Part shown: positions 13,947-55,880 of the stretch, in pieces
Position numbering within the stretch: the first letter of the stretch is position 1
Layout of the letters: each line of letters starts with the position of its first letter
Source: Thermotoga neapolitana DSM 4359
Lineage (GTDB): Bacteria; Thermotogota; Thermotogae; Thermotogales; Thermotogaceae
DNA length: 64,000 bases
Assembly (NCBI RefSeq): GCF_000018945.1
Contig: NC_011978.1
Span: forward strand, 1,458,729-1,522,728
Direction: 5' to 3'
Position numbers and translations under genes: made by a program
Notes under the pieces: generated by a model
What the model was told of the DNA's origin: nothing
What the model saw: only the letters and a program-made list of their open reading frames with translations
Databases searched by the model: none

Positions 13947-15100
13947 TGACGAACGTTCGCCGTTACTGGATCTTTCTTCTTCGAAAGATATGTGAAAAGC
14001 CTCTTGAACTCTGTGCATCCGATCGCTTGAAAGAGTTGATGCCCATAGAGGGAAAAAGGAGCAAGGAGAGGGAGAAATTTGCACCTCTTGAATTACTTGG
14101 TAGAATCCTCTGTGGGCTCTCTCCTTTTCTCGAGTTGAACAAAAAGGCTGTGAACACCGATCTTGAAGAGAAAAGAATAGCTTCCTGGTTATCAGAGCTG
14201 GCGATAAAATCTCTTCGTGTGGCAACCGATCTCGGTTGTAGAAGTTACATGAACTTTAGAGAGGGAAAACAACCTCTGGTCGATTCAGCCTTTCTGGTAG
14301 AGGGCATACTGAGGGCACCGAAAGCGTTGTGGGAAGATCTCGACCCTTCCACAAAGGAAAGATTGATAAAAGAATTGAAGGAAACAAGAAGGATAGAACC
14401 TTACTACTCGAACTGGCTTTTATTTTCCGCTATTATAGAAACTTTTTTCTTCTTTGTGGGTGAGGAATGGGATAGCACAAAGATCGATCTGATACTGAAG
14501 ATCGTAGAAGGATGGTACAAGGGGGACGGGGTTTATGGAGACGGTCCTCACTTTAGGTGGGACTATTACAACAGTTTTGTGATACAGCCAATGCTCATAG
14601 ACGTGCTGAGAATCCTTTCTGAAAGAAAATCAGAGTGGAAAGAACTGTACACGAAAGTTCTCAAACGTGCTCAAAGATACGCCCTTGTTCTTGAGCGAAT
14701 GATCTCTCCTGAAGGAACGTTCCCGATCATCGGTAGATCGATAACCTATAGAACAGGTGTTTTCCATCTCTTGAGTCAGCTTTCTCTTCTTCACCTGCTT
14801 CCACCAGAGCTTAATCCTGCTCAGGTCAGATGTGCCCTCACCACCGTTCTCAGAAGAATCTTTGAACATCCCGCTACGTTCGACGAGAACGGCTGGTTGA
14901 AAATAGGTCTGGTGGGTTCTCAACCATCTCTTGGTGAAGAGTACATCACCACAGGAAGTCTCTATCTTTGTACAACCGTTTTCCTTCCTCTGGGACTTCC
15001 ACCCTCTGATCCTTTTTGGAAAGATCCCTGTGAAAGCTGGACAAACAAAAAGGTATGGGAAGGAGAGGACATTCATCCAGACAAAGCTCTGGAAGATTAA
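13946..15100 (+). CDS. DUF2264 protein (putative uronide-processing glycosidase)
   Basis: A 384-residue alpha/alpha-barrel type protein of the DUF2264 family. Recognisable segments are YYNSFVIQPMLIDVL, GTFPIIGRSITYRTGVFH, and the end PSDPFWKDPCESWTNKKVWEG. Some members of this family have been described as beta-glucuronidases (GH154), which suits its place behind uidA. The ATG at 13946 overlaps the uidA stop (TAATG); a GTG at 13931 two bases after AGGAGG is an alternative start adding five residues. No signal peptide. Catalytic residues cannot be assigned from sequence alone. Confidence 0.75.
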   Translation: MTNVRRYWIFLLRKICEKPLELCASDRLKELMPIEGKRSKEREKFAPLELLGRILCGLSPFLELNKKAVNTDLEEKRIASWLSELAIKSLRVATDLGCRSYMNFREGKQPLVDSAFLVEGILRAPKALWEDLDPSTKERLIKELKETRRIEPYYSNWLLFSAIIETFFFFVGEEWDSTKIDLILKIVEGWYKGDGVYGDGPHFRWDYYNSFVIQPMLIDVLRILSERKSEWKELYTKVLKRAQRYALVLERMISPEGTFPIIGRSITYRTGVFHLLSQLSLLHLLPPELNPAQVRCALTTVLRRIFEHPATFDENGWLKIGLVGSQPSLGEEYITTGSLYLCTTVFLPLGLPPSDPFWKDPCESWTNKKVWEGEDIHPDKALED

Positions 15101-41934: not shown

Positions 41935-43365
41935 TTAATTTCTCTTACTCGGTTTCTTCCAGAGATTTTCATACGGTATATCCGTTACTTCCTCACACAT
42001 CTTTTTCACTTCATCGTTGACTGACGACTTGTCACCTGTTTCTTTAAGCCTTTTCAGTTCCTGCACCAGAACTCTGTGAATCTCAGGGGTTATCTTATAT
42101 TTAAAGGAAAAGATAATACCAATCAGTATTAAAGCGATTGGGACGTACGAGACCAGAATCTTCATTCCTAGCAACGTTTGTGGTGTTTGAGAGACATTGG
42201 GTGTATATCCTATCAAGTCAAGCGCAACTCCTATCATAAAGAGTGTGAAAGCCTGCACAAGTTTCCTTATGAGGGTCATCATTCCTGAGTAAAGTCCAGC
42301 CCTGTTTTCCGATGTTATAAGTTCGTCCACATCAGCAACTGTTGGAAGCATAGCCCATGGAATCATAACTCCTGCCGAGAGGCCAGCCCCGATAATGACG
42401 CAGTCTATCAGAATGAGAGATGTGGGAGAGTTTGATGACAGGAATGATAGTAGGATCATTCCTGCTCCCCACAAAGAAAGACCGGTTCTATACGCTACAG
42501 CTTGTCCAAACACATTTGATATTCTGACATACAAAGGTAAGAAAATTATCTGTGTTATAAGAACACTTCCCATGGCAAGCGAAAACATATGTTCTTTGTT
42601 AAGATAATATGTTAGATAGTATATCAATAGAGCCATCATTATGTCCATAGCAGTGTAAGCCGATATGTACATGGCAATATGTGTTCTGAAAACCCTGTTT
42701 TTGAAGACAGAAAATAAATTTCCGGAAACCTTTTGGATTGTTCCTGTCCTTGTCTCTTCTTTTGTTCCCAGGAAAACGAACAACCACGGAGAAGCATATA
42801 TGATACCGAAGATTATTCCCATCCTGAAATAGCCTTCGGCAGGAGTACTGGCTGAGTCGACAATAAGTTTTGGTATTGTTCCAGAAATCAAAGCAGAAAG
42901 CTGAGAAAAAATCATCCTCGCTCCAGAAAGCCTTGTTCTAATTCGATAATCTCTACTCATATCTGCAACTAGGGCACTGTACGGTACCATGACCATTGTA
43001 TAAACAGTGGAAAAGAAGATATACGCAAATAAATAGTACAGGAAAGTTCGAATTTGAGATTCTGAGATGAAAGGATACCAGAGAATAGAAAAGCTTATGA
43101 ATATGGGAATTATACCTATTAAGAAATAGATTCTTCTTCTTCCAAAACGAGATTTTGTGTTGTCGGAAATGTAACCCATCAATGGATCAGAAAGAGCATC
43201 CCATATCTTTCCAACAATCAAAACAAGTCCTGCCAGGGTTGGGTTTAATCCTACGATGTCAGTCAAAAATAGCAGAAATAAGGTTCCTATTACAACAAAG
43301 GATCCACCCCCAAAAATGTCTCCTAGACCATAGAGAAGGATGTTCTTGAATCCTACTTTCTTCAT
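41935..43365 (-). CDS. GPH-family sugar:cation symporter (MelB/YihO/YihP-like)
   Basis: A 476-residue transporter with 12 hydrophobic segments. GKIWDALSDPLMGYISDNTKSRFGRRRIYFLIG (with cation-site DALSDPLMG), VPYSALVADMSRDYRIRTRLSGARM and AGVMIPWAMLPTVADVDE are the GPH family hallmarks. E. coli sulfoquinovose importers YihO and YihP belong to this family, as do melibiose and xyloside carriers. AAAGGAGGATTGGC precedes the ATG. It is divergent from the ABC transporter operon across a 228-base regulatory gap and probably shares the GntR control. Whether it takes up the same substrate or an intermediate is unknown. Confidence 0.85.
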   Translation of the reverse strand: MKKVGFKNILLYGLGDIFGGGSFVVIGTLFLLFLTDIVGLNPTLAGLVLIVGKIWDALSDPLMGYISDNTKSRFGRRRIYFLIGIIPIFISFSILWYPFISESQIRTFLYYLFAYIFFSTVYTMVMVPYSALVADMSRDYRIRTRLSGARMIFSQLSALISGTIPKLIVDSASTPAEGYFRMGIIFGIIYASPWLFVFLGTKEETRTGTIQKVSGNLFSVFKNRVFRTHIAMYISAYTAMDIMMALLIYYLTYYLNKEHMFSLAMGSVLITQIIFLPLYVRISNVFGQAVAYRTGLSLWGAGMILLSFLSSNSPTSLILIDCVIIGAGLSAGVMIPWAMLPTVADVDELITSENRAGLYSGMMTLIRKLVQAFTLFMIGVALDLIGYTPNVSQTPQTLLGMKILVSYVPIALILIGIIFSFKYKITPEIHRVLVQELKRLKETGDKSSVNDEVKKMCEEVTDIPYENLWKKPSKRN

Positions 43366-43593: not shown

Positions 43594-44859
43594 ATGAGAC
43601 AGCTGAAGTTTTTCCTGGTAATTCTTCTGGTATTGGGAGTTGTTGGAGTTTCCACAACGTTGAGGGTGCTACTCTGGGATGATGCTATGACACGAGCTCT
43701 TAAAGCAGGATTGGATGAATTTGAAAAGAAAACAGGGATCAAGGTCGAACTCGAGTTAATTCCCAGCGGTTCAATGCTTCAGAAAACTCTTCTGAGTGTT
43801 ACTCTTGAAAACTCCGATTATGACCTTGTGGCCGTCGATGAACCGAATATTCCTATGGTGGCTCCTTTGTTACTTCCTCTTTCTGAGTGGCCCAGCACCA
43901 AGTTCTATGCTCAACCGGACATGAACGATATCATGCCACTGGCTCTTGAGGCAGGGAAATGGAGAGGGCAATTCATGGGTCTACCGGTCAATGCGAACAT
44001 CTATGTTTGGCTGACGAGAAAAGATATCATCGAAAAGTACAAAGACGAGTTCAAAGCAGAGTATGGGTATGAAATGAAGGTACCAGAAACTCTTCAGGAA
44101 CTTCTTGATATGTCGAAATTCCTCGCAAAGAAAGGAATTTACGGGTGGGCTCCATTCACAAAACCGACAGAAGGCAGCACGTGTGAAGCTATTTGGATGT
44201 TCAGAAGTTTTGGAACAAAGGTACTGGAAGTAACAGAAGATGGCTACAAAATTGTCTTGGATAAAGAGAAAGCAGTCCAGGCCATCGAATTCTACAAAGA
44301 GTTACTGAAGTACGCTCCAAAAGGAGCACTCGACTATGGACATTCAGAGAGAATGGCAGCTTTTTCACAGGGGCAGGTTTTTTCCATGTTCAACTGGCCT
44401 GCTCTGATACCAGATCTGGAAAATCCAGACAAATCACTTGTCGCTGGGAAAATAATCTACTCGGCTCCTCCTGCTGGTCCTGCTGGCAGAGCAGCTGTAA
44501 GGGGTGCCTGGATCGTTGGTATTCCTAAAGCTGCAAAAAATAAAGAAGCAGCTGCTGAATTCGCTTACTGGTGGATGGATTTAGAGACACAAAGGAAACT
44601 TATACCCGAAGGCATGACACCTGCGAGAGCTTCCTTGTTACTTGATCCAGAGCTTCAGAAAGAAAGACCATGGTTTGCTGGAATCTATGAATCTCTCAAA
44701 TATGCTGTTGAAAGACCGAGATTTGAGCACTATCCAGAGGTTTCTCAGGTAATAAGAATTTACTGGCTCAAAGCCATTTCTGGAGAACTTCCAGCTGAAC
44801 TGGCTGTGGACAGGATGGTGATTGGTATTGAAAACCTCCTTAAGAAATACGGTTATTAA
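43594..44859 (+). CDS. ABC sugar-binding protein (SBP family 1)
   Basis: A 421-residue extracytoplasmic binding protein. Signal peptide at residues 1-20 (FFLVILLVLGVVGVS), mature start TLRVLLWDDAMTRALKAGLDEFEKKTGIKVE, then YDLVAVDEP, FMGLPVNANIYVWLTRKD and ERMAAFSQGQVFSMFNWPAL, typical of family 1 (MalE-like) proteins. It has no Cys for lipid attachment. First gene of the catabolic operon, expected to be the most abundant product. The ligand is probably the glycoside cleaved by the GH31 enzyme at the end of the operon, but no ligand residue can be assigned. Confidence 0.9.
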   Translation: MRQLKFFLVILLVLGVVGVSTTLRVLLWDDAMTRALKAGLDEFEKKTGIKVELELIPSGSMLQKTLLSVTLENSDYDLVAVDEPNIPMVAPLLLPLSEWPSTKFYAQPDMNDIMPLALEAGKWRGQFMGLPVNANIYVWLTRKDIIEKYKDEFKAEYGYEMKVPETLQELLDMSKFLAKKGIYGWAPFTKPTEGSTCEAIWMFRSFGTKVLEVTEDGYKIVLDKEKAVQAIEFYKELLKYAPKGALDYGHSERMAAFSQGQVFSMFNWPALIPDLENPDKSLVAGKIIYSAPPAGPAGRAAVRGAWIVGIPKAAKNKEAAAEFAYWWMDLETQRKLIPEGMTPARASLLLDPELQKERPWFAGIYESLKYAVERPRFEHYPEVSQVIRIYWLKAISGELPAELAVDRMVIGIENLLKKYGY

Positions 44860-45733
44860 ACCAAAGAGGAAGGGGCTTCGCCCCTTCCTCATGTTCATAA
44901 CGCCAACACTACTGGTGATAGCTTTTATACTCATTTACCCTGTTTTCTACGTGTTGCTTCTTTCTTTCACAAACAGACAACTTTTGTTCCTTGGAAACGT
45001 GAAATTTGTAGGATTTCAAAACTACCTGACAATGTTCAGAGATGCTGATTTCTGGCATTCGCTCTGGTTACAGTTGGGATTCATTGTCGTTGCTTTACCG
45101 GTGGAGCTTATCATAGGTTTCTTCGTAGCGCTGCTCTTTAACAGAGAATTTCCTTTTTCAAAACTTTTGCGATCGTTGCTCATGCTCCCTGTTTTTGTCA
45201 TCCCCGTTCTTTCTGGATTGACCTGGAGACTGATGTTGCAACCAGATTATGGAGTTCTAGCTGCTTTCTTCCAGAGTTTGTCAATTGGTCCTGAAGCGTG
45301 GTTAGCAGACAAAACTTTTGCATACATAGCGGTTATATTACAGGACATATGGAGAATGTGGCCTTTCATGTTCATGATGATATACGCGGGTTTGTCTTCA
45401 CTTCCAGCAGAGTACATAGAAGCGGCACTCATAGATGGGGCGAACTTTTTCCAAAGAGTTTTTTACATTATCATCCCATTCTTGAAACCAGTTCTTGCCA
45501 TAGCTTTCCTCTTGAGACTAATAGATGCTTTGAGGATCTTTTCCGAAATTTATGTAATGACCTATGGGGGGCCTTCAAACGCAACAATGCTTCTTTCTCT
45601 GTACATACACAAGCAAGCCTTCGAGTTTGGGAATATATCCTACGCATCTGCAATAGGTACGTTCTTGATGATCATATCTCTTGCTATCTCCTATTTCATT
45701 GTTAAAAAAGGATTGCGTGGTGAAACAGCATGA
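44822..45733 (+). CDS. ABC sugar permease, MalF type
   Basis: A 303-residue inner-membrane permease with six transmembrane helices; the EAA loop is EYIEAALIDGANFFQRVFYIIIPFLKP. Start is uncertain: TTG 44822 or TTG 44828, both inside the end of the binding-protein gene and weakly preceded by AGGATGGTGA, give the expected basic N-terminus (KTSLRNTVIKPKRKGLRP); ATG 44891 would remove it and has no binding site. A strong hairpin (44866-44890) lies in this N-terminal coding stretch. It partners the next gene. Confidence 0.88.
   Translation: MVLKTSLRNTVIKPKRKGLRPFLMFITPTLLVIAFILIYPVFYVLLLSFTNRQLLFLGNVKFVGFQNYLTMFRDADFWHSLWLQLGFIVVALPVELIIGFFVALLFNREFPFSKLLRSLLMLPVFVIPVLSGLTWRLMLQPDYGVLAAFFQSLSIGPEAWLADKTFAYIAVILQDIWRMWPFMFMMIYAGLSSLPAEYIEAALIDGANFFQRVFYIIIPFLKPVLAIAFLLRLIDALRIFSEIYVMTYGGPSNATMLLSLYIHKQAFEFGNISYASAIGTFLMIISLAISYFIVKKGLRGETA
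44866..44890 (+). repeat. strong hairpin between binding-protein and permease genes
   Basis: GAGGAAGGGGC (44866-44876) and GCCCCTTCCTC (44880-44890) form an 11-base perfect stem with a TTC loop, seven bases after the binding-protein stop. There is no T run, so it is not a full terminator; it may protect the 3' end of the upstream message from exonucleases, or attenuate. Confidence 0.85.
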
Positions 45734-46548
45734 AAAGAAGGTTGATCGGATGGATACTGTTTATTGTAGCTCTTGCAATAGTTGCAATTGAATTGTTTCC
45801 CATACTGATAATTATCCTGAACGGTTTTAAAAAGGATATAGACATATGGAGCAGAAACCCGTTTTATTTCAAACCTACTCTTTCCAGCTATAAGAAAGTG
45901 TTTGAAAACGAAGATTTTGTAAGAGGTTTGAAGAATTCTTTAATTGCTGCGAGTATTTCTTCATTTGTCTCGGTGTTTTTCGGATCCATGGCCTCCTACG
46001 GACTGTCCAGATACAGATTCAAAATCAACGATTGGCTGATCTTTCTTCTTCTGTTGTTGCGCATGGTCCCTCAAATAACACTGTCTCTTCCTTTTTACAT
46101 CATATTCAAGAAGATGGGGCTAAGTGACAACATCTTAGGTTTGTCTCTTGCTCACATAAGCTTCAATTTACCATATTCCGTAGCTCTGCTGCTACCTTTC
46201 TTTGAAGGAATACCACGCGATTATGAAGAGGCAGCAAAAATCGATGGATGCAGGGATTTTCAAATTTACTGGAAAATATTCTTCCCATTGGCATCAGCGG
46301 GAATAGTGGTTGCAGCAGTTTTCACCTTTTTGATGTCCTGGAACGAATTCATTTACGCTCTTGTATTAACCGGTGTGAGGGCAAAAACAGCTCCCGTGGC
46401 GGTTAATGGTTTCTTGGGGCAGTATGCGCCCCTGTGGGGACAACTTTCGGCGGCTGGAACAATTATGCTTATTCCTGTGTTTGCAATCACTTTGGGATTT
46501 CAAAGATACATAATAAAAGGATTATCGGCTGGTGGAATAAAGGGATAA
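45730..46548 (+). CDS. ABC sugar permease, MalG type
   Basis: A 272-residue permease with six transmembrane helices, overlapping the upstream permease by four bases. The EAA loop is DYEEAAKIDGCRDFQIYWKIFFPLASAG, and the C-terminus ends with QRYIIKGLSAGGIKG, as in MalG/LacG types. No ATPase gene is present in the operon, so the pair must use a shared MsmK-like ATPase encoded elsewhere. Confidence 0.9.
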   Translation: MKRRLIGWILFIVALAIVAIELFPILIIILNGFKKDIDIWSRNPFYFKPTLSSYKKVFENEDFVRGLKNSLIAASISSFVSVFFGSMASYGLSRYRFKINDWLIFLLLLLRMVPQITLSLPFYIIFKKMGLSDNILGLSLAHISFNLPYSVALLLPFFEGIPRDYEEAAKIDGCRDFQIYWKIFFPLASAGIVVAAVFTFLMSWNEFIYALVLTGVRAKTAPVAVNGFLGQYAPLWGQLSAAGTIMLIPVFAITLGFQRYIIKGLSAGGIKG

Positions 46549-46566
46549 ACAAGGAGGTGTTTGAGG

Positions 46567-47229
46567 ATGAAATTTTTCCTGGACAGTGCCAATCTTGAAG
46601 AGATAAAGTATGCCATCAAAAAATGGAAAATCGACGGTATAACAACCAATCCCAGGCATCTCATGGTAGCGGGAATGACTGTAGAAGATTTCGCCAGAGA
46701 GGTAAAAGAACTCGTTGAAGGCACTCACATAACGGTTAGCTTGGAAGTGAATCCTCATTTAGAAGATCCCAAGGAGATCGTTGATCAGGCTACTTCGTTG
46801 GCATCTCTTTCGAACAATTTTGTAATAAAGATACCAGCCACCGAAAGTGGTTTTGAAGCATTAGCGGAGTTATCTTCGAAAGGAGTAAAAGTTAACATAA
46901 CACTCGTTTTCAACTTGGTACAAGCGTTGCAAGCGGCAAGACTTGGTGCTTACTACATAAGTCCGTTCGTTGGATGGAGGGAAGAAAGAGGAGAATTAAA
47001 TACTGATTTTATAAATCAAATTGTCAAAGCAGTAAAAGGTTATGGTTACAGTTCCCAAATAATCGTAGCGGCCGTTAGATCTGCAAAACATTTTGTGGAA
47101 GCAGCACTAGCAGGAGCGGATATTGTAACAGCGGGTTTTCAGGTGTACAAACGGGCCTTTGATAATCCTTACACCCGCATGGGACTCCAGATATTCTCTG
47201 ATGCCTGGAACAGTATATACGGGAGGTGA
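46567..47229 (+). CDS. FSA/TalC-type transaldolase, candidate sulfofructose transaldolase
   Basis: A 220-residue single-domain (beta-alpha)8 enzyme of the small transaldolase/fructose-6-phosphate aldolase family. Schiff-base Lys88 is in FVIKIPATESG, with Asp6 (FLDSAN), Asn28 in GITTNP and the strand ITLVFNLVQALQAARLGAYYISPFVG. Unusual points: Arg30 follows TTNP where Thr or Ser is normal, the Arg of SPFVGR is Trp137, and the phosphate Ser of AASxR is Ala169 (VAAVR). In the known sulfo-TAL pathway such an enzyme moves a glycerone unit from sulfofructose to glyceraldehyde-3-P, releasing sulfolactaldehyde; this function here is inferred from neighbours. ATG 46567, nine bases after AAGGAGG. Confidence 0.85.
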   Translation: MKFFLDSANLEEIKYAIKKWKIDGITTNPRHLMVAGMTVEDFAREVKELVEGTHITVSLEVNPHLEDPKEIVDQATSLASLSNNFVIKIPATESGFEALAELSSKGVKVNITLVFNLVQALQAARLGAYYISPFVGWREERGELNTDFINQIVKAVKGYGYSSQIIVAAVRSAKHFVEAALAGADIVTAGFQVYKRAFDNPYTRMGLQIFSDAWNSIYGR

Positions 47230-47236
47230 TCTATAA

Positions 47237-47521
47237 ATGAAGGTAGATTTCCTGGTTCACAAAGCTGGTGATGATGTGGGAGTGGCCGTGCGAGACATAT
47301 CTAAGGGAGAGAAAATCAAAGGAAAGACACTGGAAGGAGAGATTTTCTATGAATTGGAAGCAAAAGAAGATATTCCCCTTGGGCACAAAATAGCGTTGAG
47401 GGATATTAAAGAGGGAGAGAAAGTAAAAGAATACGGGGAGATAATCGGCAGGGCAACAAAAGACATATCGAAAGGATCTCATGTCCATGTTCATAACATT
47501 CGAAGTCTGCGATGGGGGTGA
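47237..47521 (+). CDS. suyA: SAF-domain small subunit, SuyA-like (sulfolactate sulfo-lyase alpha) or UxaA N-terminal type
   Basis: A 94-residue SAF-domain protein. DDVGVAVRDISKGEKI, KEDIPLGHKIALRDIKEGEKVKEYGEIIG and the final GSHVHVHNIRSLRW match the N-terminal domain of altronate dehydratase UxaA and the separate small subunit of (R)-sulfolactate sulfo-lyase. In altronate and galactarate dehydratases this domain is usually fused to the large domain; separate subunits are normal for SuyAB. It is four bases from the large-subunit gene. The symbol is a hypothesis based on the split and on the partner's residues. Confidence 0.65.
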   Translation: MKVDFLVHKAGDDVGVAVRDISKGEKIKGKTLEGEIFYELEAKEDIPLGHKIALRDIKEGEKVKEYGEIIGRATKDISKGSHVHVHNIRSLRWG

Positions 47522-47525
47522 TACG

Positions 47526-48680
47526 ATGGAAAGAACAATTCTAGGTTATGTCAGAGAGAATGGCAAAGTGGGTGTTAGAAACTATGTCCTTCTGTTACCT
47601 GTGGATGATATTTCGAATGCTGTTGTGGAAGCCGTTGAAAAATCCGTGGCTGGCACGCTGGCTCTTCCTCATCCTTATGGAAGACTGCAGTTTGGTAAGG
47701 ACCTAGAGCTGTTCTTTAAAACCTTGATAGGAACTGGTTCCAATCCTAACGTTGCAGCCGTTGTGGTGGTTGGAATAGAGCCAAAGTGGACTCATAGAGT
47801 AGCAGATGAAATTGCAAAGACTGGTAAACCGGTTGAAGCCTTCTGGGTGGAGGGAAGCGGCCAACTGAAAACTATAGAAAGGGTGTCAAGAGTAGCTGTG
47901 AAAATGGTTGAGGATGCAACCAATTTGAAAAGAGAGCCAGTTGATATAAGTGAACTCATAATCAGTTTAAAATGTGGGGAATCTGATACAACTTCAGGTT
48001 TGGGTGCAAACAGAGTTGTTGGGAGATTTACAGAGAGGTTTTTGGAAATAGGTGGAACTGTGCTCTTCGGTGAAACTACGGAGCTAACGGGGGCCGAGCA
48101 TATCATAGCATCCAGGTTCAAGAGAGAAGAAGATAGAGAAAAATTCATGCAAATTTTCAACGAATATCAGGAACTTATAAAATCACAGGGAGTGGATCTT
48201 CTGGGATCACAGCCAACAGAGGGGAACATAGCGGGTGGATTGAGCACGATAGAGGAAAAGGCTCTTGGAAACATACAAAAAATAGGCAATGCGAAGATAG
48301 ATGGTGCTCTAGACTTTCTTGAAGAAATACCTGGTAAAGGACTTTACTTCATGAACACATCCTCCGCAGCCGCAGAGGCTGTGACACTGTTTGCGGCAGC
48401 AGGTGCCGTTATTCACCTCTTCCCAACAGGACAAGGTAACCCCATAGGCAATCCCATTATACCTGTTGTGAAAATAACAGCAAATCCAAAGACCGCTCAG
48501 GTTATGTCAGAACACATCGATGTCGATGTTTCCCAGGTTTTAACAGAAGGAATGAGCATCGATGAAGCTGCTGACAAACTATGGCAAAGAGTGATTGAAA
48601 CAGCCAATGGTCGAATGGTAAGAGCAGAAATACTGAATCACAAAGAATTTGTTCTCACAAAACTTTACAGGAGTGCCTAA
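47526..48680 (+). CDS. suyB: SuyB-like large subunit, candidate (R)-sulfolactate sulfo-lyase beta
   Basis: A 384-residue homologue of the C-terminal domain of UxaA/GarD. It lacks two cysteines that altronate dehydratase has in YGCSQ and GLGCENN: here these are YGRLQF (Arg53) and GIEPKW (83-88). It keeps a third Cys150 in LKCGESDTTSGLGANRVVG, where UxaA has CGGSD, and then has FGETTELTGAEH (181-192). These changes fit the SuyB branch as I recall it, where the enzyme eliminates sulfite from sulfolactate to give pyruvate, better than a sugar-acid dehydratase. ATG 47526 follows GGGGGTGATACG; the frame is open upstream into suyA. An unknown hydroxyacid dehydratase is the alternative. Confidence 0.65.
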   Translation: MERTILGYVRENGKVGVRNYVLLLPVDDISNAVVEAVEKSVAGTLALPHPYGRLQFGKDLELFFKTLIGTGSNPNVAAVVVVGIEPKWTHRVADEIAKTGKPVEAFWVEGSGQLKTIERVSRVAVKMVEDATNLKREPVDISELIISLKCGESDTTSGLGANRVVGRFTERFLEIGGTVLFGETTELTGAEHIIASRFKREEDREKFMQIFNEYQELIKSQGVDLLGSQPTEGNIAGGLSTIEEKALGNIQKIGNAKIDGALDFLEEIPGKGLYFMNTSSAAAEAVTLFAAAGAVIHLFPTGQGNPIGNPIIPVVKITANPKTAQVMSEHIDVDVSQVLTEGMSIDEAADKLWQRVIETANGRMVRAEILNHKEFVLTKLYRSA

Positions 48681-48682
48681 AA

Positions 48683-49927
48683 ATGGTGATAACCGTTCCA
48701 TATGGAAAGGGCCATTTATCACTGGAATTTCCAGAAAATTTAAAAGTAGATGTTTTGCAAAGCAGAAGAAGCAGCATTCCCTCTTTAGGAGAAGATAAAA
48801 TAAACACCGAAATCAAGAAAAATCTGGAAAAACTGGCGATTTCAGCAAAAATCGTAGGTGTGGCGATACCAGATCAAACAAGGCCAAACATCTCGGAAAA
48901 GATATTGCCTTTCCTCGTAAAGGTTTTACTTGAAAAGGATGCCAAAGAAGTGCGAATTTGCATCGGAACAGGTCTACACAGAAATCCAACAGAGGATGAA
49001 ATACGAAAATTGATACCTTTGCACAGAAACGAAAGGATAAAAGTTTATATAAACAACGCACTTGACAAAAAGAGTTTATCTTTCCTAGGTCACACAAGAT
49101 TCGGTACTCCCGTTTGGATCATGAAACATTTCGCAGAATCCGATATAAAAATCGCCGTTTCTGTGGTTGAAGAACATCAATTTGCCGGTTTCTCCGGTGG
49201 AGCAAAAGCGGTCGCTATAGGGCTGGGCGGTGAGGAAACGATTTCCGGGAACCATTCAAAAATGAAATTCCAGAGAGCTAAAATGGGTGTTATCGATGGA
49301 AATCCTGTCAGGGAAGAAATCGATGAAATAGGTGAAATGGTTGGACTGGATCTTCTTATTAACTCTGTTCTGAATGAGAAAAAAGAGATCATAGGTCTTT
49401 TTGTGGGGGAGCATCCCCATTCCCATAGGATGGCGTGTGAGTTTGTAAAGAAAATCAGTGGAATTCCTGTGAAGAGGCTTTATGATCTTGTGGTAGTATC
49501 CCCTGGTGGCTATCCGAGGGATATTGATCTATACCAATCTCAAAAAGCACTTGCTGTTGCACAGGAGTTCTGTAAACCCGGGGGAACCATTGTCCTTTTG
49601 GCAGAGTGTTCGAAAGGATTCGGCGATGAGGGCGGGTATGTCCCTGTTCTGGAGAGAGCACGTTCTCCAGAAGAAGTGATTGAAAACTTCGACTTTAGTA
49701 ATTTCAAAGTAGGACCTCACAAGGCTTTTTTAATAGCACAGACCCTCATCAAATGTAGGGTTAAAATCTTATCAACATTACCTGCTGAGAGGTTGAGAAA
49801 CATGTTCTTTGAACCCATAGTGAACTTCGAAGAAGCTATAAAAGAAATAGAGCCAAAATCGTCTGTTTGTGTCATACCAAATGCTTCGCAAATCATACCT
49901 GTTCAGGGGAAGGAGGAGAAACTATGA
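48683..49927 (+). CDS. LarA-family nickel-pincer 2-hydroxyacid racemase homologue
   Basis: A 414-residue homologue of lactate racemase LarA, which uses a nickel-pincer nucleotide covalently bound to Lys. LarA residues His108, His174, Lys184 and His200 correspond exactly in spacing to His99 (GTGLHR), His165 (VEEHQF), Lys175 (SGGAK) and His191 (SGNH) here. DQTRP (64-68) matches the substrate/cofactor DxxR motif. Cofactor genes larB, larC and larE are not in this window. Between suyB and the aldehyde dehydrogenase, the natural proposal is a sulfolactate racemase supplying the R isomer to SuyAB; lactate or another 2-hydroxyacid remains possible. ATGA overlap with the next gene. Confidence 0.85.
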   Translation: MVITVPYGKGHLSLEFPENLKVDVLQSRRSSIPSLGEDKINTEIKKNLEKLAISAKIVGVAIPDQTRPNISEKILPFLVKVLLEKDAKEVRICIGTGLHRNPTEDEIRKLIPLHRNERIKVYINNALDKKSLSFLGHTRFGTPVWIMKHFAESDIKIAVSVVEEHQFAGFSGGAKAVAIGLGGEETISGNHSKMKFQRAKMGVIDGNPVREEIDEIGEMVGLDLLINSVLNEKKEIIGLFVGEHPHSHRMACEFVKKISGIPVKRLYDLVVVSPGGYPRDIDLYQSQKALAVAQEFCKPGGTIVLLAECSKGFGDEGGYVPVLERARSPEEVIENFDFSNFKVGPHKAFLIAQTLIKCRVKILSTLPAERLRNMFFEPIVNFEEAIKEIEPKSSVCVIPNASQIIPVQGKEEKL

Positions 49928-51342
49928 AAATGCTGGTTGCGGGCAGATGGGTTGATAGAGATGAAAAGATAGAGGTCTTGAATCCTTATGATGGAAGTTT
50001 AGTCGATACGGTTCCAGTTGCCTCGGAAGAGGATATAGAAGAAGCAATAAGCAAAGCTGTTGAAGGTGCAAAGATCATGAAAAGGATGCCTATCTGGAAG
50101 CGGGTTGAGATTCTTGAGAAAACCTCAGAGCTTCTCAAGGAAAGATACAAGGAAATCGCTGTTCTTCTGGTCAAGGAATCTGGGAAAACCATAAGAGAAG
50201 CAGAAGCAGAAGTCCTCAGAACTGCTGAACTCTTCAGGATGTCTGCGGAAGAAGCAAAAAGGATTCATGGTGAAACGCTTCCTTTTGATTCATTGAAAGG
50301 TTCTGAAAGAAAAAGGGGCTATTTTGTGAGAGAACCGGTTGGAATCGTTGCCGCAATTGTTCCATTCAACGTTCCTCTTGCCCTCTGCGCCCATAAGGTT
50401 GGCCCAGCTATAGCAGCAGGGAACGCTGTGATTATAAAGCCCCCAACCCAGGATCCTCTTACGAACCTGGTTTTAGGGGAAATCTTACTTGAAGCGGGAA
50501 TGCCTTCAGAAGCGGTCAGTATCTTGACGGGACCTGGAAGCAGAGTAGGAACCCCTATAGTAAGAGATGAAAGAATCAGGATGGTAAGTTTCACAGGCAG
50601 CGTTCCTGTGGGAAAAACCATTATGAAAAATGTTGGCTTGAAGAAAGTATCCATGGAATTGGGTTCAAACAGCCCTCTCATTGTAACTGAAACTGGTAAC
50701 TTAGAAAAAGCCGTGAAAGCAACCGTTTCGGGTGGTTTTTCGCTTGCCGGTCAGGTCTGCATTTCCGTTCAGAGAGTCTATGTTCACAAAAAGGTTTTCA
50801 ACGATTTTGTTGATCTCCTCATAGAGGAGGTAAAGAAGATAAAAGTGGGAGATCCTATGTCTAGGGATACCGACATGGGACCGGTCATCGATGAACCGAA
50901 TGCTTTGAGAATAGAAAGCTGGATAAAAGAAGCCGTCGATAAGGGCGCAAAACTTGCCATCGGAGGAGAGCGTAACTATACCTTGATATCTCCTACCGTT
51001 CTCCTTGAGGTTCCGAAAGATACCAAGATCATGACCGAGGAACTGTTTGGGCCAGCCGTTGCTGTAAATTCTTTCGAAGTTTTTGAAGAAGCTCTCGAAG
51101 AAGCCAACTCAACAAAATATGGCCTTCAGGTGGGTGTCTTCACTTCAAAGATAGATGAAGCGTTTGAGGCAATCGAAAAACTCGAATTTGGAGGAGTTTT
51201 GATAAATGAAGGACCAAGGTACAGGGCAGATTTCATGCCTTATGGTGGCTATAAAGAAAGCGGTATAGGAAGAGAAGGTATCAAATTCGCCATAGAAGAG
51301 ATGACAGAGATAAAGACCGTCATCTTTGATTTGAGGGAGTGA
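49924..51342 (+). CDS. aldehyde dehydrogenase, candidate sulfolactaldehyde dehydrogenase
   Basis: A 472-residue NAD(P)-dependent aldehyde dehydrogenase of the lactaldehyde/GAPN-like group. Catalytic Cys279 is in SLAGQVCISVQR and general-base Glu245 in SMELGSNSP; IVPFNVPLALCAHKVGPAIAAGNAVIIKPP forms the cofactor site, and FTGSVPVGKTI is the NAD motif. In sulfoglycolysis such enzymes oxidise sulfolactaldehyde to sulfolactate; lactaldehyde oxidation is the main alternative. ATG 49924 after AAGGAGGAG overlaps the LarA-like gene; codons upstream in the same frame lie inside that gene. Confidence 0.85.
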   Translation: MKMLVAGRWVDRDEKIEVLNPYDGSLVDTVPVASEEDIEEAISKAVEGAKIMKRMPIWKRVEILEKTSELLKERYKEIAVLLVKESGKTIREAEAEVLRTAELFRMSAEEAKRIHGETLPFDSLKGSERKRGYFVREPVGIVAAIVPFNVPLALCAHKVGPAIAAGNAVIIKPPTQDPLTNLVLGEILLEAGMPSEAVSILTGPGSRVGTPIVRDERIRMVSFTGSVPVGKTIMKNVGLKKVSMELGSNSPLIVTETGNLEKAVKATVSGGFSLAGQVCISVQRVYVHKKVFNDFVDLLIEEVKKIKVGDPMSRDTDMGPVIDEPNALRIESWIKEAVDKGAKLAIGGERNYTLISPTVLLEVPKDTKIMTEELFGPAVAVNSFEVFEEALEEANSTKYGLQVGVFTSKIDEAFEAIEKLEFGGVLINEGPRYRADFMPYGGYKESGIGREGIKFAIEEMTEIKTVIFDLRE

Positions 51343-51347
51343 TTAAC

Positions 51348-52685
51348 TTGATCAACCTCATTCTTGTTCCATCGGTGAGAAGTACTTATGAAGTTTCAGA
51401 AGGAAGAAGAATATTCAATGAAGAACTAGAAAATTTGCAAAAGATGCAAGATATAAATTGGTTTTACCCAAGCGATGTTATAGAATACACCGAAAATCTT
51501 GAAGCGTTTCTTAATAAAATGCGCAAAGAGGACATCGACGGAATTGTGTTAATGAGTGCGACTTTTCATTTGGGAGACATAGCCCTCCTCCTCGCTCAGA
51601 AATTTTATGACGTACCCATTCTATGCTGGGCTGTTCCTGAACCGCCCTATTCTTCTGAGGGAAGAGTTAGACTAAACTCACTCGTTGGGGCACATCTGGA
51701 TGTATCGAACCTCAAAAAGATTGGAAAAAAAGACGTTGAGTTTGTATATGGATCATCAAAGAGTGAACATTTTCAAGAAAAATTCATCGAATGGATCAAC
51801 ATCATAAAAATCAACAAGACTTTAAAAGGTGCAAAAATAGGGCTAGTTGGAGGTCATGCAAAGACTTTTCTCAACATCGACGTGTATGAACCTCTTCTTC
51901 TCAAAGAGATTGGAGTAACAGTGGAACACATTCCTTTGAGCTTCGTTTTTAATTTAAACCTTGACAGAAATTCCATTGAAAATTTGAAAGAGGAAATTGA
52001 GAAAACCTACGACACTGAAAAATTGAATGAAGACAAGAAAAGCAAGGTATGTAAGTTGATCGTTTCTTTTAAACGAATACTTGAAACAGGCAAATTCAGC
52101 GCGCTGGCCGTAAGATGCTGGCCTGAATTTGCATCGTATTACGGCATTTCACCGTGTGCTGCTATGGCCTGGAATATGGCACAGGGTTCTATTCTAAGCT
52201 GCGAAGGGGATGTTCTTGGGGCAGTAACAATGTTAATGCTCAAGGCAATAGGCTGTAAAGACATGTATCTAGCGGACATCAGCCAGATCATAGAAAAAGA
52301 TTCCTCCCTTTTAATGTGGCATTGTGGGGTTGCTCCTCATACGCTTTGGGATGGTGTATCCAAAAAATCCCTGGAGACTTATTTTGCTGGTGGAAAAGGT
52401 GTAACAACTGATTTCGTTCTTAAACCAGGACATGTGACCATTGTTCGTCTTGACCATACAGATAATGAATGGAGGCTTTTCATAACCGAAGGTGAAGCCG
52501 TTCACACAAAGCAAGAGTTAAAGGGAACCTATGTGAAAGTGCGCGTTAAAGATCCTCTAAAACTTGTGGATACCCTCATCGAAAATGGATTCCCACACCA
52601 TGTTGTCCTTGGATACGGATCTTTCACAAGAAGCCTTATCAAGTTTGCAAAAACAAAAGGTTGGAGGGTTGTAAGTGATGATTAA
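51348..52685 (+). CDS. FucI/AraA-fold sugar isomerase-like protein
   Basis: A 445-residue member of the fucose/arabinose isomerase superfamily (COG2407-like). Segments: DIDGIVLMSATFHLGDIALLLAQ, CWAVPEPP, KIGLVGGHAKTFLNIDVYEP, LAVRCWPEFASYYGISPCAAMAWN, SCEGDVLGAVTMLMLKAIG and MWHCGVAPHTLW, with Glu and His residues placed as in this family's Mn site. It is the only aldose-ketose isomerase in the cluster, so it probably forms the ketose used by the transaldolase (sulfofructose from sulfoquinovose if the pathway proposal holds). TTG 51348, eight bases after GAGGGAG, is the preferred start. It overlaps the GH31 gene by eight bases. Confidence 0.82.
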   Translation: MINLILVPSVRSTYEVSEGRRIFNEELENLQKMQDINWFYPSDVIEYTENLEAFLNKMRKEDIDGIVLMSATFHLGDIALLLAQKFYDVPILCWAVPEPPYSSEGRVRLNSLVGAHLDVSNLKKIGKKDVEFVYGSSKSEHFQEKFIEWINIIKINKTLKGAKIGLVGGHAKTFLNIDVYEPLLLKEIGVTVEHIPLSFVFNLNLDRNSIENLKEEIEKTYDTEKLNEDKKSKVCKLIVSFKRILETGKFSALAVRCWPEFASYYGISPCAAMAWNMAQGSILSCEGDVLGAVTMLMLKAIGCKDMYLADISQIIEKDSSLLMWHCGVAPHTLWDGVSKKSLETYFAGGKGVTTDFVLKPGHVTIVRLDHTDNEWRLFITEGEAVHTKQELKGTYVKVRVKDPLKLVDTLIENGFPHHVVLGYGSFTRSLIKFAKTKGWRVVSDD

Positions 52686-54594
52686 GCACGAAATAAAGGG
52701 AAATCAATTCTACGTTGCTGTAAATGATCACATACTGATATCTTCAAAGAATATATGGGAAGGATTTGGTAAGGAAAGGATCAAAGAATACCATGGCCAC
52801 TTCACCATAAAATCAACTGTAAAAGAATATTACCCTTTTAAAGGTAGTATAGAATTGGTATCTGAAAACCCCTTTGAAATTCACATAAAATCTTCCAGAG
52901 ACATCAACAGGCTGCTGATAAAAACTGAATTGGCGAAAGATGAAGTAATATTTGGTGGAGGAGAACAGTATAGTGAGTTGAATCTTAAGGGCAAAAGATT
53001 TCCTCTGTTCGTTCAGGAACAGGGTGTGGGAAGAGGTAAGAATCTGATTTCACTTCTAGCCTACCTGAAAAAAGTTAGAGGTTCGTGGTACAGCACTTAC
53101 TTTCCCCAGCCTGTTTTTTTCTCCAATAAAGGGTATGGTATCGTATTCAAAACCTACGCTCCTATGATCGTTGATTTGAGAAAAAATATTGCCTTGTTCG
53201 AAATATGGAGTAACGAGTGCAACATAATCGTTTTGTCCGGAACATTAGAGGAAATGGTAAGAGATTTATTCAAAATTTTCGGGGGCGCTTTTGATTACGA
53301 AGACTGGATGTTCGGTGTCTGGTTGGCTTCTCAAGGTGGAACGGAGAATATTGAACGCATTATAAAGACTGCGAGAGAATGGAATATCCCTGTTCATGCC
53401 GTATGGGCGCAAGATTGGTGTGGAAAAGTGTATACCAAATTCGGGAGACAGGTATTTTGGAACTGGGAGTACGATAAAGAAGACTATCACGATCTACCTG
53501 AGTATATCAAAAAGTGGCACGAAGAGGGTATTCGTTTCTTGGGTTACATAAATCCGTTCCTTAATAAAGAAGGGAACCTATACAAAGAAGCTCTGGAGAA
53601 AGGATATTTAGTGAAAAAAAAGGATGGAAGCGTATATGACATAGTAGTGACTACCTTCCCAGCGGGTCTTATAGATCTGAGCAATCCAGATGCGTTTGAG
53701 TGGTACAAATCAATAATTCTAAACAACATGATATCAATAGGAATGGATGGATGGATGGCAGACTTCGGAGAATATTTGCCAATGGATGCCGTGTTGAAAT
53801 ATTCCAGTGGAAAGGAGTATCACAACAAATACCCTGTGGAATGGGCCAGGTTAAACTTCGAAGCAGTAAAAGCATCTTCAAAAAAGGTGGTCTATTTTAT
53901 GCGCGCTGGATTTTTGGGATCCACTAGATTCTGTCCAGCCTTCTGGACAGGTGATCAGAATGTAGATTGGTCGTTCAGCGATGGTTTGCCAACCGTAATT
54001 CCTGCTATGACGAGTTCTAGCCTCTGTGGAGTTCGACACATACACTTCGACATAGGAGGATACACATCCTTGTTCTGGATGAAGCGAACACCAGAGCTGT
54101 TTATGAGATGGACAGAAATAGCAGCCTTTTCCCCCGTTATGCGAACACACCAGACCAACCGTCCCGTGTCAAACATACAGTTCGATTCTAATCATGACAT
54201 ATTAAGACACTTTTCTAAGATGGCTAATATGCACGTTCTTTTGATAGATTATCTGAAGGTAGAATTCAAAAAAGCTATAGATGAGAATCTACCTGTTGTA
54301 AAACACCTAGCTTTGAACTATCCAGAGGATCCTGAGTCCTGGCAGATAAAGTATCAGTATCTACTGGGGAATGATATCTTGGTTGCACCTGTACTGAAGA
54401 AGAAAACAAGAAAGTGGAAGGTTTTTCTTCCAAGAAGGGAAAAATGGGTACATCTTTGGACAGAAAAGATGTTCTCTGGAGGATGGATAGAGATTGATGC
54501 TCCTCTTGGAGAACCACCTGTTTTCGTAAGACTTGGTTCTGAATTTCTAGAAAAAATACTTGCTGCATCGAGAGATGTTCAGGAATTAAGATGA
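52678..54594 (+). CDS. GH31 alpha-glycosidase of the YihQ sulfoquinovosidase type
   Basis: A 638-residue GH31 enzyme that aligns by eye along its whole length with E. coli YihQ: FGGGEQYSELNLKGKRFPLF, EQGVGRGKN, ASQGGTE, VWAQDWCG, DGWMADFGEYLP, WTGDQNVDWSFSDGL, HFDIGGYTSLF and MRTHQTNRP. The nucleophile is Asp362 and the acid/base Asp426. Of the five sulfonate-pocket residues of YihQ (QQRWY), Gln219, Gln245, Trp261 and Tyr462 are kept with equal spacing, but the Arg301 position is Gln258 (an Arg precedes it). So it may hydrolyse sulfoquinovosides with altered binding, or another 6-modified alpha-glycoside. No signal peptide, so intracellular. ATG 52678 or GTG 52675. Its last 16 bases overlap the opposing gntR gene. 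Confidence 0.9.
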   Translation: MIKHEIKGNQFYVAVNDHILISSKNIWEGFGKERIKEYHGHFTIKSTVKEYYPFKGSIELVSENPFEIHIKSSRDINRLLIKTELAKDEVIFGGGEQYSELNLKGKRFPLFVQEQGVGRGKNLISLLAYLKKVRGSWYSTYFPQPVFFSNKGYGIVFKTYAPMIVDLRKNIALFEIWSNECNIIVLSGTLEEMVRDLFKIFGGAFDYEDWMFGVWLASQGGTENIERIIKTAREWNIPVHAVWAQDWCGKVYTKFGRQVFWNWEYDKEDYHDLPEYIKKWHEEGIRFLGYINPFLNKEGNLYKEALEKGYLVKKKDGSVYDIVVTTFPAGLIDLSNPDAFEWYKSIILNNMISIGMDGWMADFGEYLPMDAVLKYSSGKEYHNKYPVEWARLNFEAVKASSKKVVYFMRAGFLGSTRFCPAFWTGDQNVDWSFSDGLPTVIPAMTSSSLCGVRHIHFDIGGYTSLFWMKRTPELFMRWTEIAAFSPVMRTHQTNRPVSNIQFDSNHDILRHFSKMANMHVLLIDYLKVEFKKAIDENLPVVKHLALNYPEDPESWQIKYQYLLGNDILVAPVLKKKTRKWKVFLPRREKWVHLWTEKMFSGGWIEIDAPLGEPPVFVRLGSEFLEKILAASRDVQELR

Positions 54595-55248
54595 TCAAGA
54601 ATGTTTTTATAATGCTTTTCTATGGATTCAATTAGACGCTTTTTGTCGTTTGAGATTATAGAACGAAGGATCTCTTCATGGATTTCTATTGATCTTTTTT
54701 GATAATCCGAATCAGCGAGATAGTCCTTTTTCAATACGTACCAGACACGGCTTTTCATATAATCTAGCAGGTTTTCCATCAGGTGGAAAATTATAGAATT
54801 TCTTGCTGCTTTAGCATAAACTTTATGAAACATAACATCTGACTCTGTTAAAGCACGAAATTTTTTCTGTTCGAAGTACTCTTTCATCAAAGAAAGATGA
54901 TGTTCCATGTCCTGAATCATTTGAAGCGAAAAGTTTGAAATGTAAAATTCTGCTATAGCTTTGTCTAAAAATTCGCGCGCAATTATCAACTCATCCAAAT
55001 CATAGGCTAGAAGTTTGGATTGCTTGTTTTTCCTCTGAAGGTATTTTTATTACGTAGTTACCACTACCCCTTCTGCTTTTTATAATACCCGAAGCCTTAA
55101 GGAAACTAAGAGCCTCTCTAACAATTATACGAGACGCTCCTATTTTTTCACACAATTCCCTTTCGGGTGGTAGACGATCTCCTTCTTTAAGATTCATTTC
55201 TCTTATCAACCTTTCTATTTCTTTTACCGTTTCATGAACCTTGGACAC
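54579..55248 (-). pseudogene. GntR/FadR-family regulator, frameshifted between domains
   Basis: The N-terminal frame (GTG 55248, seven bases after GGAGG) encodes a GntR winged helix: EGDRLPPERELCEKIGASRIIVREALSFLKASGIIKSRRGSGNYVI. It ends at a stop at 55002-55000. The FCD ligand-binding domain continues in the next frame (ELIIAREFLDKAIAEF to KHYKNILDHL). Removing one A from the five-A run near 55030 would join both parts into a normal 220-residue FadR-type regulator. Expected role is ligand-released repression of the adjacent catabolic operon. Either a recent mutation, which could make the operon constitutive, a programmed slip on the A run, or a sequencing error. The HTH part alone could still bind DNA weakly. 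Confidence 0.82.
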
Positions 55249-55260
55249 AAACACCCCTCC

Positions 55261-55279
55261 TTGGTATTGATTATACCAA
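55261..55279 (-). promoter_or_regulatory. inverted repeat overlapping the gntR -10 element
   Basis: TTGGTAT-TGATT-ATACCAA is a perfect inverted repeat; on the minus strand it contains TATAAT, a full -10, just before the gntR ribosome binding site. This fits autoregulation. Its half-site resembles the palindrome inside the catabolic operon promoter. Confidence 0.65.
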
Positions 55280-55325
55280 CAGGTATGAGTATTTCTCAGA
55301 ATTTGGAAAAAGTAAAGAACGAATC

Positions 55326-55880
55326 CTAGTAAAACAAAAACTGTGGGTACATCCTGACTTCTGTAGAAGGTGTTATCACAATATCCTTTGAGGTGTAGAT
55401 ATAGACCGACCAGAAATACTCCTTGCCGGAGACTTCTATCATTGGAATTGAAAAGAACGTCTTTGTCCCATCTTCTGTTGTTCCTTCGATTGTGATGGCA
55501 TAAACATTCTCCACAAATTCAGGTTTGTTAGCAAGACTCCAGGGAATGGCTCTGCTGCTCAGTTCTTCAACAGAGATCACACTGCAACTGGTGAGTGTGG
55601 AAGGTGTCGTTAGATCGTAAACCAATATCTCACTACTGGAAAGGACCATATCTACAACTTCTGAGTCGCTTGCATCGCTCTCTGGAACGTAGATGATTTC
55701 TCTCAAAAGATCGTAACTGGCAGGACTGGTTTCCAGTTCATCAACAATATCCATAGTTTGATCCAGCAGCTCCTGTGCCTTCTGTTTGATTCCTTCTTCC
55801 ACGATGATACCCACAACTCCTGTGCAGCCGGCAAGGACTATCAAGAAGGCCATAACAGCTATCAACAAATTCTTTCGCAT
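55326..55880 (-). CDS. lipoprotein of unknown function
   Basis: A 184-residue protein with a lipoprotein signal: basic start (MRKNLLIAVMAF) and lipobox LAGC near residue 18. The mature part, rich in acidic and Ser/Thr residues with a helix (EEGIKQKAQELLDQTMDIVDELE) and beta segments, matches no family I recognise. GGGGGTG precedes ATG 55880. It is divergent from the VWA protein gene, with about 100 bases between them, and may share its promoter region. Confidence 0.7.
   Translation of the reverse strand: MRKNLLIAVMAFLIVLAGCTGVVGIIVEEGIKQKAQELLDQTMDIVDELETSPASYDLLREIIYVPESDASDSEVVDMVLSSSEILVYDLTTPSTLTSCSVISVEELSSRAIPWSLANKPEFVENVYAITIEGTTEDGTKTFFSIPMIEVSGKEYFWSVYIYTSKDIVITPSTEVRMYPQFLFY

Follow-up and report, generated by a model that had tools for sequence, protein, structure and literature searches.

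Does a GH31 enzyme that lacks the arginine with which sulfoquinovosidases (SQases) grip the sulfonate still act on sulfoquinovosides? The question is raised by the last gene of an operon in the heat-loving bacterium Thermotoga neapolitana, analyzed here in a stretch of 64,000 nucleotides (the window). A first-pass annotation offered two explanations, either a new way of binding the sulfonate or another 6-modified substrate such as a 6-deoxyglucoside. Throughout, we take Arg301 of Escherichia coli YihQ to be the sulfonate-contacting arginine of SQases and Tyr508 of the same enzyme to contact the sulfonate through water.

The GH31 gene and its pocket residues

The gene, which was identified by its open reading frame and by Pfam, NCBIfam and structure matches, and the residues discussed below are as follows. 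Pocket and catalytic residues were assigned by alignment.

52675..54594, + strand, GH31 sulfoquinovosidase-like gene (start GTG 52675 or ATG 52678)
52996..52998, + strand, Arg108 (YihQ Pro145), covaries with residue 301, candidate relocated cation
53332..53334, + strand, Gln220 (YihQ Gln262), codon CAA
53410..53412, + strand, Gln246 (YihQ Gln288), codon CAA
53446..53451, + strand, Arg258-Gln259 (YihQ Lys300-Arg301), codons AGA at 53446 and CAG at 53449, the Arg to Gln change
53458..53460, + strand, Trp262 (YihQ Trp304), codon TGG
53557..53559, + strand, Phe295 (YihQ Tyr337), covaries with residue 301
53644..53661, + strand, V324-V-T-T-F-P329 loop (YihQ E366-F-G-E-F-Y371), covaries with residue 301
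53761..53763, + strand, catalytic nucleophile Asp363 (YihQ D405)
53953..53955, + strand, catalytic acid/base Asp427 (YihQ D472)
54061..54063, + strand, Tyr463 (YihQ Tyr508), codon TAC at 54061

The protein has 639 amino acids if translated from the GTG at 52675 and 638 from the ATG at 52678; residues are numbered here from the GTG, one higher than in the first-pass annotation. Pfam matches comprised the GH31 barrel and the C-terminal domain. The strong overall similarity to YihQ claimed earlier is borne out by the NCBIfam model PRK10426 (YihQ), which scored 831 bits against a cut-off of 553, and by the best sequence matches in the PDB, all of them SQases (E down to 2e-154). The AlphaFold2 model (pLDDT 93) reached Z scores of 54-55 to solved SQases versus about 40 or less to other GH31 structures, and in a tree rooted with YicI as the outgroup the protein grouped within the YihQ-like clade and not with the remaining GH31 proteins (support 100). 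The neutral residue at position 301 would suit an ordinary alpha-glucosidase, or a GH31 enzyme of broad specificity, that sits by chance in a sulfoglycolysis operon. However, the window protein keeps the SQase-specific QDWxGxxxTxFG insertion, which YicI and those other GH31 proteins of the genome that were tested lack, and the window gene is the only YihQ-clade GH31 in the T. neapolitana genome, so that such an enzyme is hardly credible.

The alignment with YihQ is gap-free around the pocket. Both catalytic aspartates are kept, and Gln262, Gln288, Trp304 and Tyr508 have the counterparts that had been named before (Gln219, Gln245, Trp261 and Tyr462 in ATG numbering). The alignment and the codons AGA and CAG also confirmed the claimed replacement of Arg301, a residue common to all the solved SQase structures that were aligned, by Gln259 (formerly Gln258), with Arg258 (formerly Arg257) just before it. 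This arginine is the counterpart of YihQ Lys300, a variable position occupied by K, R, Y, S or Q in homologues. Two ways in which the replacement might prove illusory had been put forward. A read error at the glutamine codon is ruled out by the presence of glutamine in all 12 members of the window's clade, the window included, and a point change peculiar to the T. neapolitana genome is ruled out by Gln301 in many homologues. Entry of Arg258 into the Arg301 site through a register shift is unlikely because the alignment has no gap, position 300 is Tyr or Ser in further clades with Gln301, and the hairpin strands have the same register in the predicted models (257-260 in the window protein, 299-302 in YihQ).

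Spread of Gln301 and the positions that change with it

A homologue of the GH31 gene was found in 29 of 103 Thermotogota genomes, one in each; residue 301 was Gln in 26 and Arg in three. In the window's clade, whose members are 50-70% identical, Gln was found in 12 of 12. As to the earlier question whether an Arg-Gln swap is fixed in Thermotogota, the glutamine is fixed within this clade but not in the phylum as a whole, and there is no swap as such, Arg258 being the Lys300 counterpart. Nor is the glutamine as rare as had been implied: 108 sampled homologues, from Thermotogota and from wider-scan loci of several phyla, had Arg in 62 cases and Gln in 46, proportions that are no census since the sample is biased to relatives of the query. 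The residue switches only two or three times on the tree. The Arg set includes YihQ and its near relatives, and the Gln set falls into several deep branches, from Thermotogota, Spirochaetota and Clostridia (Lachnospiraceae and others). Judged from these sequences, Gln301 is a deep lineage character. The outgroup gives no ancestral state for the position, since YicI and the other GH31 proteins lack the insertion that bears residue 301. A further Gln-type branch, in which the glutamine is not preceded by a basic residue, comes from Clostridia of rumen and gut (Butyrivibrio, Roseburia, Lachnospiraceae; L101, L103, L111, L118 and similar loci), which combine Gln301 with Tyr at position 300 and an SF-transaldolase-type gene alongside.

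The columns most closely tied to residue 301 are YihQ positions 366-371 and Tyr337, which becomes Phe. Most Arg types have (E/D)FGEFY as the loop; Gln types have V/I-V-T-T-F-P or a near variant of it, and in them the acids at 366 and 369 are lost along with Arg301. With the loss of one arginine and two acids the local charge would be no more negative. Thr326 of the window protein aligns with YicI Trp380, and YihQ Trp304 and Tyr333 align with YicI Trp315 and Trp345. Trp345 and Trp380 of YicI presumably line the -1 subsite, so the loop at 366-371, with Thr326, probably borders the sugar. Shared ancestry accounts for much of the covariation, which is no independent sign of contact because no more than two or three switches of the residue underlie it. 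Mixed sequences are few; L062, for example, has Arg301 with Phe337 and a non-FGE loop. Two Spirochaetota and Lokiarchaeota homologues, L062 (9839-11824, Phe) and L079 (10001-11974, Met), have Arg301 with a non-canonical 366-371 loop and lack Tyr337, and may be transitional forms linking the two kinds of pocket.

Taken with the operon described below, these features make it probable that the protein is a retaining alpha-sulfoquinovosidase with a second, so far uncharacterized, pocket type, in which Arg301 and the acidic loop (Glu366, Glu369) would have been jointly exchanged for Gln259 and a neutral Thr-Thr-Phe-Pro loop. Sulfonate binding would fall to Gln259 and Trp262, to the Thr326/Thr327 loop and, via water as in YihQ, to Tyr463, perhaps aided by Arg108 or Arg258. 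A special case of this proposal, its probability contained in that of the whole, is a moved cation, with Lys/Arg at YihQ position 145 (Arg108 in the window) or Arg258 taking over from Arg301. Position 145 is Lys or Arg in 89% of Gln301 homologues versus 8% of Arg301 homologues; however, it comes before the N-terminal domain's active-site loop. Similarly, position 300 is basic throughout the window's clade (clade A) but is Tyr or Ser in the other Gln301 clades. We therefore consider a moved cation rather unlikely.

The known GH31 SQases YihQ (E. coli), SmoI (A. tumefaciens), SftG (E. rectale) and BmSQase share with the window protein the fold, the catalytic Asp pair, the QDWxG...FG insertion and the operon setting. 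The Gln/Gln/Trp/Tyr pocket is also common to the window protein and known SQases, the A. tumefaciens type having Lys/Glu for Gln/Gln. The window protein differs from all four in having Gln for Arg301, a TTFP loop for (D/E)FGEFY, Phe for Tyr337 and a basic residue at 145. Against its assignment as an SQase stand the presence of Arg301 in all aligned solved SQases and the fact that co-location is no proof of substrate.

The operon and its putative pathway

The genes upstream of the GH31 gene, from the transporter through the isomerase, all run in one direction.

43594..46548, + strand, ABC sugar transporter: binding protein and two permeases
46561..47229, + strand, sulfofructose-transaldolase-like protein with the SF-transaldolase signature
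47237..47521, + strand, SuyA-type SAF-domain subunit
47481..48680, + strand, SuyB-type sulfolactate sulfo-lyase large subunit, similar to SuyB of sulfonate degraders
48683..49927, + strand, LarA-type nickel racemase (LarAH5 family by NCBIfam), proposed sulfolactate racemase
49921..51342 (from 49867 by the ORF finder), + strand, SlaB-like sulfolactaldehyde dehydrogenase
51339..52685, + strand, SftI/SqvD-like sulfoquinovose isomerase, fucose isomerase family (NCBIfam SftI)

The only model that matched the isomerase was NCBIfam SftI (E 7e-78), at 262 bits, below its cut-off of 700. The transaldolase scored 233 bits against BmSF-TAL, a solved sulfofructose transaldolase, versus 159 bits against the T. 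maritima transaldolase, and has in common with BmSF-TAL the segments TTNPRH, E(V/I)NPHL and VGW(K/R)E. SuyB is 59% identical to a protein encoded beside hpsN/hpsO in Cupriavidus pinatubonensis (next tier, 40%), and the lyase has the Suy layout of a split SAF subunit and a GD_AH subunit. The aldehyde dehydrogenase is 42-45% identical to those of Bacillus sulfo-TAL clusters, with which it has FNV and a His in common. Sulfolactaldehyde dehydrogenases in which the sulfonate-binding Arg/Arg pair is replaced by His/Asn are a precedent for the exchange of such arginines (PMC10599462); at those positions the window enzyme keeps the His and has Ser for Asn.

Two neighbors lie on the opposite strand. 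A GPH-family sugar symporter gene (41935-43365, - strand) points away from the operon; its like is found beside many of the related clusters, and this one could be a second sulfosugar carrier. On the 3' side of the operon, a GntR/FCD regulator (54579-55518, - strand) is split over two frames, its DNA-binding part ending near 55000 and its FCD part lying in the other frame at 54579-55046. A relative in L036 is intact (13632-14297), and the window copy looks frameshifted, whether really or through a sequencing error.

We infer from this gene set a pathway in which GH31 would free sulfoquinovose, the sugar of plant sulfolipid, from glycosides of sulfolipid origin (for example, sulfoquinovosyl glycerol), and the isomerase would convert the sugar to sulfofructose. 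The transaldolase would then yield sulfolactaldehyde and fructose 6-phosphate, the dehydrogenase would oxidize sulfolactaldehyde to (S)-sulfolactate, LarA would turn this into (R)-sulfolactate, and SuyAB would cleave the latter to pyruvate and sulfite. The pathway itself is not new: sulfo-TAL clusters with SuyAB are already published in Thermotogae and Chloroflexi, with isomerase, transaldolase, SuyAB and GH31 in one operon as in the window (PMC9594981). Those descriptions, given at the family level, mention neither a LarA racemase nor a Gln301 pocket (PMC9594981).

The LarA step is the one that departs from them. SuyAB requires (R)-sulfolactate and sulfoglycolysis gives the S form, a gap that other bacteria bridge with two dehydrogenases, SlcC and ComC (PMC12421959, PMC9594981). 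The best model for the window LarA was NCBIfam LarAH5, malate racemase (483 bits, cut-off 462), and LarC is present in the T. neapolitana genome. The prototype of the same model, LarAH5/Mar1 of Desulfitobacterium hafniense, is weak on malate (0.39 versus 185 per s per mM for Mar2; PMC7583248), and D. hafniense is reported to use sulfolactate as an electron acceptor (PMC12890257). Since malate is the carboxylate analogue of sulfolactate, it is a reasonable proposal that the window LarA is a one-step sulfolactate racemase acting in place of SlcC/ComC. No LarA sulfolactate racemase was found in the literature searched. At 38% identity or more, LarA occurred only in genomes of the window's clade among Thermotogota. 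It is not a fixed member of the pathway, being missing between SuyB and the dehydrogenase in the Pseudothermotoga-like clusters L036, L039 and L046.

The operon also bears on the second explanation offered at the outset. With a 6-deoxy-alpha-glucoside (quinovoside) as substrate, 6-deoxyfructose would be split to lactaldehyde, this would be oxidized to lactate, and LarA would be a lactate racemase. The missing sulfonate-binding arginine, the LarA family and the best match of the aldehyde dehydrogenase, a lactaldehyde dehydrogenase model under its cut-off, would all fit. However, a SuyAB-type lyase needs a leaving group at C3 and lactate offers nothing to eliminate, LarA matches best the model for a dicarboxylate (malate), not a lactate, racemase, the transaldolase carries the SF-transaldolase signature, and sulfo-TK clusters surround other Gln301 clades. 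A quinovosidase is thus very unlikely, and of the two early explanations the new mode of sulfonate binding is favored by the operon context.

The association extends to other genomes. SuyB and the SF-type transaldolase occur in an identical set of 14 of the 103 Thermotogota genomes, and each of the 14 also belongs to the 29 that carry the GH31 gene (Fisher p 1e-9, a value that overstates the association as the genomes are kin). When loci with at least 12 kb of context were counted (38 Gln301, 59 Arg301), an isomerase plus a transaldolase/transketolase lay near 31 of the 38 Gln301 genes and 20 of the 59 Arg301 genes; at least one of the two was present at 37 of the 38 Gln301 loci. Among the other Arg301 loci many come from enterobacteria, and E. 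coli K-12 has sulfo-EMP genes beside yihQ. Almost every transaldolase next to a Gln301 or Arg301 gene had the SF-transaldolase signature, L072 being the exception. In the sulfo-TK clusters of Thermotogota (transketolase, RpiB-like isomerase, iron alcohol dehydrogenase) the GH31 residue is Arg (L050, L060) or Gln (L048-L058). Because both sit in like clusters, Arg and Gln types seem interchangeable within one kind of pathway. An anionic alpha-glucoside with some other 6-substituent (glucose 6-sulfate, say, or a different sulfosugar) that is processed alike downstream would fit the alteration of the whole pocket loop and not a single residue, and the lyase might eliminate sulfate as well as sulfite. 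The transaldolase signature, however, is common to the solved SF-transaldolase and the Arg301 clusters, and the two residue types occupy like clusters; we give such a substrate only a small chance. Sulfoquinovose is preferred over a 6-deoxy sugar because of the sulfo-TAL/SuyAB operon and because other Gln301 genes lie in sulfo-TAL or sulfo-TK clusters.

Sulfonate recognition with and, possibly, without the arginine

The literature searched, which comprised papers other than the primary reports on SQases and their structures and those on GH31 subfamilies, contained no report of a Gln-type pocket in SQases and no assayed Gln301 enzyme, kinetics or ligand structure. A parallel exists in GH188 enzymes, where a sulfonate-pocket residue has likewise changed in a clade still found within sulfosugar clusters; unlike the window GH31, they have a different fold, an NAD-dependent mechanism and a backbone rather than a side chain that binds (PMC11465081).

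If the assignment is correct, the published SQase motifs with Arg301 would cover only one of two pocket designs, and motif-based surveys would miss or mis-annotate the Gln301 enzymes of Thermotogota, Spirochaetota and gut and rumen Clostridia. The T. neapolitana enzyme would offer a thermostable, easily tested case of sulfonate recognition without the usual arginine, and its operon a definite candidate for an enzyme that racemizes sulfolactate in a single step. More tentatively, a large and widespread class of SQases may bind the sulfonate without arginine, through a neutral, hydrogen-bonding Gln/Trp/Thr-Thr pocket, and in Thermotoga this class may feed a pathway with a nickel-pincer sulfolactate racemase.
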